Assembly: GCA_945919465.1 (NCBI GenBank)
Contig: CAMEJG010000021.1
Location: 1 to 34,709 of the forward strand
Origin: an uncultured Anaeroplasma sp.
Lineage (GTDB): Bacteria; Bacillota_I; Bacilli_A; Acholeplasmatales; Anaeroplasmataceae
DNA: 34,709 bases
Direction: 5' to 3'
In this document: piece by piece, positions 12,326 to 26,600 of the stretch
Layout of the letters: every line of letters starts with the position of its first letter
How positions within the stretch are numbered: the first letter of the stretch is position 1
The notes under the pieces: generated by a model
Told to the model about the DNA's origin: nothing
Seen by the model: the letters and a program-made list of their open reading frames with translations, nothing else
Database searches by the model: none
Made by a program: the position numbers and the translations under genes

Positions 12326-12333
12326 TTTAAATT

Positions 12334-12362
12334 ATAGGAGGGAATTATTTCCTCCTATTTTT
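12334..12362 (+). terminator. Terminator of mfd
   Basis: ATAGGAGGGAA (12334-12344), TTA loop, TTTCCTCCTAT (12348-12358), then T. An 11-bp stem with one G-T pair; strong. Confidence 0.9.
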
Positions 12363-12363
12363 A

Positions 12364-12660
12364 GTTTTAAAAAAGATTATAGCTATGCCTATAAATAAAA
12401 AAATTCCTGTTATATAATTTAAGTATAGTCCGCCAACTGCACAAAAATTAATAACAAGGAGTGATATCAAATGAATGATACCGTTAATAGTTTAGCACAT
12501 ATAAGTTGAAATTGTAAGTACTATATTGTATTTGCCCTAAAATATAGAAGACAAGTTTCTTATAAAAGTAAGAGACTAGAGAAGGGCAAATATAAAAAGC
12601 TTTGTGAATTCAAAGAAGTTGAAATAATTTAAGCAGAGGTTTGTCCGGATCACATTCATA
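12364..12660 (+). mobile_element. Degenerate IS200/IS605-type element (left part)
   Basis: The element begins right after the mfd terminator. It has a hairpin TTATAG-CTATGC-CTATAA (12377-12394), a candidate left-end hairpin of the Y1-transposase type, an untranslated leader, a good AAGGAGTGAT site and a broken tnpA. The 3' half of tnpA and a recognisable right end are missing; foreign DNA joins within the tnpA histidine region. A second copy of the same left end lies at 6764-6827. Confidence 0.7.
12471..12660 (+). pseudogene. tnpA: IS200-like transposase tnpA, broken
   Basis: Reading from ATG 12471 gives MNDTVNSLAHIS, stop, NCKYYIVFALKYRRQV, then KKLCEFKEVEII, stop, AEVCPDHIH. These are the conserved N-terminal blocks of IS200 Y1 transposases (...SLAHTKWECKYHIVF-PKYRRQV..., CEYKGVEIIEAEACPDHIH), including the HxH metal motif. 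TGA replaces the Trp codon, TAA replaces a Glu codon, a stretch after RRQV is deleted, and the C-terminal half with the catalytic Tyr is gone. It is certainly inactive. Confidence 0.85.
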
Positions 12661-12892
12661 CGTTAGAAATACCAACAATGCAGGCGGTTATGTGGCTGTT
12701 CCTGCCATGATGCAGATGCAGGGGATGAATGTGTCCCCTGTACCATCTGTTACACCAGCTGATCCAACAGAATCGAGAAAGGAAATGGTGGAGGAATTAC
12801 CAGAGATTAATCTGGAGCTTTCCGATAAGCCACTGGATGATGGAGCACTTGCTTCTTTGTCTGTCATGTTTGGGGATGATGAGGAAGAATAA
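12641..12892 (+). CDS. Small acidic, Pro-rich ORF of unknown function (probable 3' fragment)
   Basis: I do not recognise this ORF. The open frame can start at TTG 12641, but that codon lies inside the tnpA remnant, so the foreign part starts near 12665. Internal ATGs at 12707 and 12710 would give about 60 residues. The product has a Met/Gln/Pro-rich middle (AMMQMQGMNVSPVPSVTP) and ends in an acidic tail (FGDDEEE). Codon use and G+C differ from the flanking mfd and match the AbiEi gene downstream. It is probably the 3' end of a gene cut by the insertion junction, from a higher-GC Bacillota donor. Confidence 0.4.
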   Translation: MSGSHSYVRNTNNAGGYVAVPAMMQMQGMNVSPVPSVTPADPTESRKEMVEELPEINLELSDKPLDDGALASLSVMFGDDEEE

Positions 12893-14728: not shown

Positions 14729-14862
14729 GGCTCTATATCGAGCAGGAAGTGGCTGTGAAGTGGGAGGTTGCCGACACACCGAAGAGCGTTGTCATACAGC
14801 GTGTTGGGTTTTCTCATGGAGCAAGTCTATACTACGATTATAGGCGAAAGGAGTATATTAAA
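14729..14862 (+). promoter_or_regulatory. Structured, G+C-rich leader of rpsJ
   Basis: About 134 nt with visibly higher G+C than its surroundings. It folds into GCTC-TATATC-GAGC (14730-14743), a nested stem CCGACAC/GTGTTGG (14771-14777 with 14801-14807) enclosing GTTGT-CAT-ACAGC (14788-14800), and CTATA/TATAG (14827-14843). The ribosome site AAAGGAG follows. The position fits an autoregulatory ribosomal-protein leader; in E. coli this operon is controlled by L4 at its leader. I do not know the ligand here. A GTG at 14749 opens into rpsJ in frame but is not a credible start. Confidence 0.6.
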
Positions 14863-24018: not shown

Positions 24019-25323
24019 TTGCTAAATAAAGCAAAATTAATTTTAGGTAATCGTGAGATTGTTCTAAAACTATTGATTACTTTTGCTTTACTATTAGTTT
24101 TTAAGGCAGGAACTTATATTCCTGTACCATTAATTGAAATTAGTAAAGTACAAAGTATTTTATCAGGTAATGACTTTTTAACAGTACTTAATGCTTTTTC
24201 AGGAGGAGGTTTATCTAACTTCTCTATTCTAGCTTTAGGTATTTCACCTTATATTACTTCATCAATTGTTATTCAAATGATGCAAATGATCATTCCAAAG
24301 TTCAAAGAGTGGGGTGAGTCTGGTGAGGTTGGTAAGCAAAAGCTTAACCGCGTTACTAGATATGTAACTATCGTTATTTCATTAATTCAAGCTTTATTAA
24401 TATTATTTAGCTTAAATGAAAATCCAGTTAGTATTTTTGTAAACTCATTAATTGAGTATAAAGATATTTATTGGTTAATCTTTATCTATATGGCGATTGT
24501 AATTACTGCAGGTTCTGCATTTACGATGTGGTTAGCAGATTTAATTACTCGTCATGGTATTGGTAATGGTTCATCAATGATTATCGCCGCAGGTATTATT
24601 TCAACTATACCAACAATGTTTGCTACATTAGCTGATACATATTTAGGTGCAAACTTTACAGTAGGAAATCTATTTCTATATGTTCTAGTTATTTTCTTAT
24701 ATGTAGCAATGATAGTCGGGGTTGTCTTCTTTGAAGGCGCAGTTAGAAAGATACCTGTACAATATGCAAATCGTCAGGCTGGTCAACAAGGCTCTGATAT
24801 TCCAATCAAGCTTAATAGTGCGAGCGTAATTCCAGTTATCTTCGCATCTACAATTTTATCAATTCCATTAACTATAATTGGTGCATTAGGTCTTCAAACT
24901 TCATCATCAAATACAGCGTATTGGTTTGATCAAATTTTCTCAACTAGCCAACCAATAGGTATTGCATTATATGGTATATTAATTATATTCTTTAGTTTCT
25001 TCTATTCTTTTATGCAAGTTGATCCAGAGCGTATTGCTGAAAACTTGGATAAGCAAGGTGCGTATATCCCAGGATATCGTCCAGGAGAGGATACTAAAAA
25101 TCAATTATCTAAGATGTTATTTAGAATTACATTAATAGGCTCAGTTTATCTATTAATTTTAGCAATGGTACCAATTGTTGTAACAAAAGCATTTGGATTT
25201 ACTTCATCTGCTATTCAAATTGGTGGTACTTCTTTAATAATCATAGTTGGTGTTGCGATTGAAACATTTAGACAAATCGAAACAGCATCAGAAACTAAGG
25301 ATTATAAGGGCTTCTTAGATTAA
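24019..25323 (+). CDS. secY: Preprotein translocase channel subunit SecY
   Basis: SecY forms the protein-conducting channel in the cytoplasmic membrane and works with SecA and SecE. 434 residues with ten hydrophobic segments. Seen: TYIPVPLI near TM1, [22 protein letters not shown] in the plug/TM2 area (20 or fewer contiguous residues are diagnostic), GHGIGNGSS-type loop [32 protein letters not shown], and [20 protein letters not shown]. It has a TTG start with GAGGTGAT 6-7 bases upstream within rplO, so expression may be tuned down. Standard position after rplO. Confidence 0.97.
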
Positions 25324-25340: not shown

Positions 25341-25985
25341 ATGAAATTATTAATTATGGGTAGACCTGGAGCAGGAAAGGGTACTCAAGCTGTAAATATT
25401 AGAGAATATTATAATATTCCTCATATTTCAACAGGAGATATGTTCCGTGCTGCAATTAAAAATCAAACAAAGCTTGGTCTTGAAGCTAAAAGCTATATGG
25501 ACAAAGGTGCTCTAGTACCAGATGAGGTTACCATTGGTATTGTAGAGGAAAGATTACTTGCTGAGGATTGTAAGGATGGCTTCTTATTAGATGGTTTCCC
25601 TAGAACAATCGCTCAAGCAGAGGCATTAGATGCTTTCTTAAAGAAAAATGGAATAAAGCTTGATGCTGTTTTAGACGTTAACGTACCACAAGAAATCTTA
25701 GTAAGACGTATGGTGGGTAGACGTGTATGTAAAAATTGTGGTGCAACATTCCATGTTGAATTTAATGCACCAAAGGTTGAAGGAATCTGCGATAATTGTG
25801 GTTCTCCATTAATTCAAAGAGCAGATGATACTGAGGCTACAGCAAAGAATCGTTTAACAGTTTACGATAATCAAACAGCTCCATTGTTAGAATTCTATAA
25901 GAAACAAAATATTTTAAAAACTGTAAATGGTGATCAACCATTAGACAAGGTTTTTGATGATATTAAGGTTGTACTTGGTGCTTAA
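25341..25985 (+). CDS. adk: Adenylate kinase
   Basis: Interconverts ATP + AMP and 2 ADP. 214 residues. The P-loop [10 protein letters not shown] is at residues 7-16, the NMP-binding part has STGDMFRA, and the lid carries a zinc site of four Cys (130, 133, 150, 153), typical of Gram-positive long-type enzymes. [13 protein letters not shown] and [13 protein letters not shown] complete the signature. TTAGGAGGAAA precedes the ATG. In most Bacilli map follows at once; here 393 noncoding bases follow. Confidence 0.98.
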
Positions 25986-26378
25986 TATATGAGTTTTCTC
26001 ATATAGTAGCATTGTGTCACAAAAAAGCATGTGTATACATGGGAACTAAAATAAGAGATTATTTTTAGAGTGATGTTTTTACATCAATAAAAGGTGGTTG
26101 TTCATGGTATTCCTTATTAATTTAACGTAGCAAATTATTTGGGGGATATCATGAAGATTCAGCTTTATGAATCGTAATTGATATTCAATTATCAACTATT
26201 GCATTAGTCATTCTTTTGTAATGATTTTCTAAGTAAATATAATCAAAGGCACATGATTATATATAATGAAATGTTTATAAAAAATAAGCTAGTGGTTAAT
26301 GCGGGCACATAATGTTTATTTCTATTTATAGAATTAATCACTACTACACTTTAATAAAATTAGGAGGCTAAAGTTTCA
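25986..26378 (+). ncRNA. Candidate structured RNA: chain of hairpins between adk and infA
   Basis: No ORF or protein remnant is seen in these 393 bases. They hold a series of mostly perfect stems: 8 bp with TTTT loop (25986-26005), 5 bp (26028-26041), 7 bp with GAGA loop (26048-26065), 6 bp with TTTT loop (26071-26086), GATTC/GAATC (26156-26173), 6 bp (26078+100 region, 26178-26195), 5 bp (26208-26224), 9 bp (26237-26262) and 11 bp with one G-T pair (26290-26343). The loop GGCACA (26248-26253) could pair with TGTGTC near 26013-26018. None has a terminator T run, so the operon can be read through. It could be a long leader of infA, a processed RNA, or an inserted repeat. Confidence 0.4.
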
Positions 26379-26600
26379 ATGGCAAAAAAAGATGATGTAA
26401 TTGAGATGGAAGGTAGAGTTGAAGATGTTCTACCAAACACACAATTTATTGTAACATTAGATAATGGTCATCAGGTTAAAGCCCACGTTTCTGGTAAAAT
26501 CCGCATGAATAACATACGCATTTTACCAGGTGATAAGGTAACTATTGAGTTATCAACCTATGATTTAACACGTGGAAGAATTACTTACAGACATAAATAA
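26379..26600 (+). CDS. infA: Translation initiation factor IF-1
   Basis: IF-1 occupies the 30S A site during initiation. 73 residues of OB fold: [53 protein letters not shown], and the terminal [23 protein letters not shown] precedes the ATG. Confidence 0.98.

Follow-up and report, generated by a model that had tools for sequence, protein, structure and literature searches.

An RNA hairpin within the codons of map appears to have outlived the gene in ribosomal operons of Anaeroplasma and related bacteria

The gap between adk and infA in the ribosomal operon of an uncultured Anaeroplasma sp. is almost certainly an eroded map gene, to judge from its alignment with intact copies in sister species, and an RNA element embedded in the map coding sequence has probably persisted beyond the loss of the gene in two or more separate lineages. 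The explanation that combines this decayed gene, the surviving RNA element and an inferred role at an mRNA boundary is rated the best overall and is somewhat favoured as a whole. The stretch of DNA analysed is 34,709 nt long and is referred to as the window. The features of the adk-infA region, all on the + strand, are as follows.

25341 to 25985 (+): adk, a 214-aa open reading frame and the gene 5' of the gap; the search with it found relatives at up to 92% identity.
25986 to 26378 (+): the entire adk-infA gap, an untranslated spacer holding a hairpin chain, with z of about -5.
25986 to 26005 (+): TTTT-loop hairpin of 8 bp directly 3' of the adk stop codon, mean pair probability 0.96.
25999 to 26351 (+): decayed map (methionine aminopeptidase), collinear with codons 17-251 of the sister-species map, with many deletions.
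26071 to 26086 (+): TTTT-loop hairpin of 6 bp, mean pair probability 0.93.
26092 to 26115 (+): map codons 73-81 (EVVVHGIPS), the 5' arm of the conserved hairpin, with 22 of 24 bases matching the consensus of intact relatives.
26101 to 26155 (+): conserved hairpin, with a predicted 16-bp stem (26101-26116/26140-26155) and inner helix (26118-26123/26132-26137), from the minimum free energy (MFE) fold and pair probabilities.
26143 to 26165 (+): map codons 101-109 (KGYHGDSA), the 3' arm of the conserved hairpin, with 22 of 23 bases identical.
26216 to 26243 (+): promoter-like TTGTAA-16-TATAAT, counted for a promoter reading but not evidence given the number of such sites in the region.
26293 to 26308 (+): remnant of map codons 204-209 (VNAGT), source of the second GGGCACA, with 14 of 16 bases identical.
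26362 to 26367 (+): infA ribosome-binding site AGGAGG; in the MFE fold AGG is unpaired and GAGGC weakly paired, with a mean probability of 0.50.
26379 to 26600 (+): infA, the gene at the start of the downstream half (alpha) of the operon.

The 393-nt gap contains no open reading frame of at least 30 aa on the + strand. Its MFE is -94.2 kcal/mol compared with a mean of about -69 for dinucleotide shuffles, and three shuffle runs gave z scores of -4.49 (0 of 100 shuffles as low), -5.18 and -5.55. The hairpin-rich folding of the gap is more than chance. For comparison, 99 same-strand spacers measuring 80-500 nt were taken from about 430 kb of the same genome. Their median z is -1.88, with 12% falling below -4; many of the latter, by eye, carry an intrinsic-terminator hairpin followed by a T run. 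A search of the gap for such a terminator (GC-rich stem plus T run) found none, with 0.2 expected by chance. The original prediction had described a noncoding, densely folded gap lacking a terminator, all of which is borne out, and the shuffled-sequence check that it proposed places the gap outside the shuffled range at z of about -4.5 to -5.5. The stems that it listed are real, including the two with TTTT loops, but the longest helix was understated; this is the 16-bp stem of the conserved hairpin, which has a mean pair probability of 0.97. Elsewhere in the window, an apparent broken IS200/IS605-type transposase gene at about 12470-12680 (+), recognised by its letters alone, reads MNDTVNSLAH..., then NCKYYIVFALKYRRQVSYKS..., and this putative remnant lies partly inside spacer 12326-12640, which has a z of -8.

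Evidence that the gap derives from map comes from comparison with the intact genes of the genus. In a DNA search of 60 relatives, many genomes gave short matches to positions 97-134 and 158-180 of the gap, and the matching segments sit within an intact map of about 250 codons between adk and infA, where they correspond to the VVHGIPS and KGYHGDSA codons. These two segments are the best-preserved pieces of map in the gap. Aligned as a chain against a profile of the intact genes, the gap scores 143.7, whereas 12 shuffles average 66.2 and reach at most 76.7; the best single stretch has an nhmmer E of 2.9e-5. Eleven genomes of the genus, as well as its sister genus g6, have a map open reading frame of 250 aa at this position between adk and infA. 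About half of the gene length has been deleted in the window. The earlier description of the hairpins as standing in place of map thus turns out to be true in a stronger sense than was meant, since the stretch consists of map remains. The gap sequence has one match only in its own genome and is therefore single copy, and a single weak 30-nt match (E 0.005) was found elsewhere in the same search of 60 relatives; single copy number and collinear homology to map refute the suggestion of a repeat insertion. A proposed loop-loop contact between GGCACA and TGTGTC is also unsupported: TGTGTC lies inside a stem of its own (mean pair probability 0.85), and both copies of GGCACA align to ordinary map codons (140-143 and 204-209). 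An initial reading of the second hairpin arm as 'GDIMK' codons was wrong and was replaced by KGYHGDSA upon comparison with intact map. Translational bypass or recoding of the map gene was likewise rejected, given that many separate deletions take about half of the gene.

Two further genes for methionine aminopeptidase score above the family cut-off in the genome, and nearly every genome of the family has at least one other such gene, which accounts for the loss of map being possible. The ancestral map between adk and infA almost certainly became redundant in this way and was then eroded by point changes and deletions. Across the family sample (55 genomes, 7 genera), adk and infA are separated by about 770-786 nt where map is present and by 21-465 nt where it is absent. 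In an operon tree built from seven proteins (1410 columns), mapless genomes of the genus to which the window belongs are scattered among map-bearing ones. A tree forcing all eight mapless genus members together was rejected (AU p = 0.001), while one grouping the window with G022, G019 and G018 was not (p 0.26). Because a single common loss is rejected and the smaller grouping is not, these sequence comparisons make two to four separate losses of map within the genus likely, in addition to those in other genera.

A hairpin made from the same two map segments is present in the window and in six other mapless species (G018, which is Anaeroplasma bactoclasticum, G019, G022, G004, G015 and G011), the outcome of the comparison of adk-infA intervals that the original prediction had called for. 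The arms, which lie about 60 nt apart in intact map, form a core stem of 12-16 bp in the mapless genomes with a loop that is mostly much shorter, and the outer helix is kept although its sequence differs between species. The spacers of G011 (94 nt) and G019 (116 nt) contain little recognisable map beyond the hairpin. G001, the sister of G011, has a 21-nt gap and no hairpin, which means that the element is not indispensable. Substitutions found only in mapless sequences harm the fold less than randomly placed ones in each of the eight sequences where they occur (z -0.14 to -2.53), a modest effect in a set that includes two pairs of close relatives. An exact-pattern search of 160 genomes of the order matched only G018 and G022, the pattern being too strict.

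Strong folding extends beyond the hairpin. All 20 mapless family spacers tested (80-465 nt) have z between -2.7 and -7.3, sequences unrelated to one another included. The mapless spacers of genera g2, g4 and g5 have no map homology and yet fold well, and those of genus g3 retain other parts of map (G028: nhmmer E 3.7e-25). Several further observations were made on mapless spacers. In L152 and L154 (G034 and G028, genus g3), mainly the 3' end of map is kept, and pairing is conceivable between AGCTGGTGTTCAT and ATGACACTGGCT, an arm not seen in this form in intact map. Five map-unrelated gaps of genus g4 (L127, L130, L131, L132 and L139) have in common an element of two hairpins, the first with a loop resembling TTTAGCACATTGT and the next GC-rich, and in G063 and G064 a loop at the corresponding position carries GCACAA. 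Five Enterococcus genomes (L095, L096, L098, L100 and L113) have near-identical mapless adk-infA spacers of about 196 nt with no open reading frame.

Structure in intact map was evaluated by permuting synonymous codons within each gene, using a segment (codons 73-108) that had been named beforehand from the mapless species. This segment has a mean z of -4.25 and lies below -2 in all 11 map-bearing genomes of the genus, which are sister genomes and not independent data. It is the lowest of 36 map windows, the next best having a mean z of -2.11, and none of 73 windows in adk, rpoA and secY of the genus is as low (minimum mean z -3.29). Counting against the reading, most coding windows of the genus lean toward structure at mean z of -0.5 to -1.5, and some in secY come near -3. 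The first two secY windows (gene at 24019-25323; codons 1-36 and 37-72) have mean z of -2.92 and -3.29 in nine genus genomes and may be further RNA elements in coding sequence. Paralogues of methionine aminopeptidase in the same genus average -1.24, and the operon map values are lower (Mann-Whitney p 1e-4). Outside the family, in families f2, f3 and f5, the duplex z is about 0 and the hairpin effect is weak.

Conservation of synonymous codons over expectation peaks at codons 76-84. The consensus structure has 31 pairs and a covariation score of 0.197 compared with 0.117 for column shuffles (0/500), and slid partners score at most 0.075. The central stem is near-invariant in intact maps, with 8 of its 11 pairs never varying, so the covariation support is supplied by the outer and apical helices. 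In the mRNA of intact map, codons 73-108 very probably form a rod-like hairpin, with the HGIPS codons paired to the KGYHG codons in the central stem. This stem was probably retained with a shortened loop after the death of map in at least two separate lineages, and strong folding persisted in the remainder of each spacer. Survival of the hairpin across losses suggests that the RNA itself has a job. The structured RNA or processing or regulatory region that the original prediction had put forward for the whole gap is accordingly narrowed to its central hairpin, for which conservation across separate losses, synonymous sites and covariation all argue.

The signal points to the RNA strand. In 17 of 18 mapless spacers the + (mRNA) strand is more stable than its complement, and the + strand of the intact-map hairpin reaches about -25 to -39 kcal/mol compared with -9 to -23 for the other, a difference due to G-U pairs. 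Selection acting on RNA is thereby favoured, as against templated repair or an inverted repeat in the DNA, the latter being rejected on the strand asymmetry.

RNase III was found in 53 of the 55 family genomes, and the hairpin has the structure of an RNase III site in that a 16-bp double-stranded stem coincides with the presence of rnc in the same genome. That genome also encodes two RNase III-domain open reading frames below the family cut-off (G000:C8:48692-49363 and G000:C32:15208-15735, in frames of 371 and 439 aa). The rod separates the spc genes from the alpha genes of the operon, with no terminator and no clear sequestration of the infA ribosome-binding site in the window. In the likeliest of the roles considered, its nearly bulge-free stem would mark an mRNA boundary, with the spc genes as far as adk on one side and the alpha genes infA-rplQ on the other, as a putative RNase III cut site or a ribonuclease barrier that sets the stability or levels of the two halves. 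This boundary role, by cutting or by blocking, is put forward tentatively from the position and shape of the stem and is a possibility short of an even chance. Shielding from Rho-dependent termination was considered and excluded, since Rho was found in none of the 55 family genomes while control genomes behaved as expected.

The main sceptical reading, regarded as quite unlikely, is that the hairpin is a neutral relic that survives decay by eroding more slowly, with deletions taking loops while stems resist or correct mutation, and that the other folding is a by-product. The remaining map pieces in the gap do look like plain erosion with deletions, the inter-arm loop shrinks in each mapless lineage as deletion at an inverted repeat would cause, and G001 lost everything. 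Decay cannot, however, explain why the segment is the top structured window of an intact and translated map under synonymous permutation; templated correction of DNA inverted repeats would not be expected to give a G-U-rich, strand-specific stability; and the same 34 or so of 750 nt are retained in lineages whose common loss is rejected. The first and last of these points also bear on the more general proposal that any untranslated stretch of the operon is selected to be compact and double-stranded against endonucleases, the hairpin having no specific partner. Good folding in 20 of 20 mapless spacers, drawn from five clades and unrelated in sequence, speaks for such shielding, which nevertheless leaves unexplained both the structure of this segment in intact, translated map and its retention in separate losses, and it is considered doubtful.

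Ribosomal operons are commonly autoregulated through ribosomal-protein binding sites, and the hairpin could be a putative protein-binding site, for example for an operon-encoded ribosomal protein, through which translation of infA and the alpha genes would be controlled. An S10-Clostridia leader (Rfam RF03136) is annotated upstream in the window at 14747-14847 (+), with 38.1 bits over a cut-off of 35.1, and in G018 and G019 the MFE fold partly pairs the infA ribosome-binding site. In the window, however, this site is largely open or weakly paired, the core stem is a near-perfect rod without the usual bulges and internal loops, and there are no Rfam matches to ribosomal leaders; in map-bearing species, moreover, the element is inside map, several hundred bases 5' of infA. 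Protein binding is on this evidence an unlikely explanation. The Rfam search gave no match in the gap at the gathering threshold, the best weak one being tp2 (25.7 bits with a cut-off of 50, E 0.07), which overlaps the HGIP arm and was judged to be chance. Retention of the spacer for an internal infA-rplQ promoter is highly improbable: the TTGTAA-16-TATAAT site lies outside the conserved hairpin, and promoter-like sites are fewer in the region (2) than shuffles lead one to expect (5.7). The most far-reaching reading is that a functional hairpin lay in the codons of a housekeeping gene that became redundant and was repeatedly lost, and that selection kept the RNA each time, so that the RNA and not the protein would be the reason that this piece stayed; the chances of this being so are put at about even.

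If true, this last reading would provide a clean natural experiment on overlapping functions in which repeated loss of the protein separates protein selection from RNA selection. The finding names a specific RNA element in a ribosomal operon of Anaeroplasma and allied genomes, which form a Rho-less group, and bears on the question of how long polycistronic mRNAs are cut or stabilised in that group. The cultured Anaeroplasma bactoclasticum ATCC 27112 has a mapless form of the region (L040/G018), which makes the claim testable. The papers searched contain no report of this element; adk, map and infA are treated only as genes of the ancestral operon cluster (PMC8046335).

Both pseudogene remnants and structured elements of ribosomal operons have precedents, and a codon-embedded element that outlives its gene in more than one loss would be an unusual variant of them. 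With type I methionine aminopeptidase (map, TIGR00500) of the spc operon order secY-adk-map-infA, the gap shares collinearity over codons 17-251 and the place between adk and infA, but it has no reading frame, about half of its length is deleted and it is reduced to hairpins. Ribosomal-protein leaders such as S10-Clostridia are likewise structured RNAs in a Bacillota ribosomal operon, whereas the map hairpin is not at the operon 5' end, has no known ligand and in relatives lies inside coding sequence. The RNase III processing hairpins of bacterial polycistronic mRNAs share with it a long, near-perfect stem (12-26 bp) between operon parts, and the map hairpin, a candidate site from sequence alone, differs in being embedded in the map open reading frame of sister species. 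Pseudogene-derived RNAs are also RNA structures built from gene remains, but the map hairpin appears to have pre-existed in the intact coding sequence and to have been kept in more than one loss.
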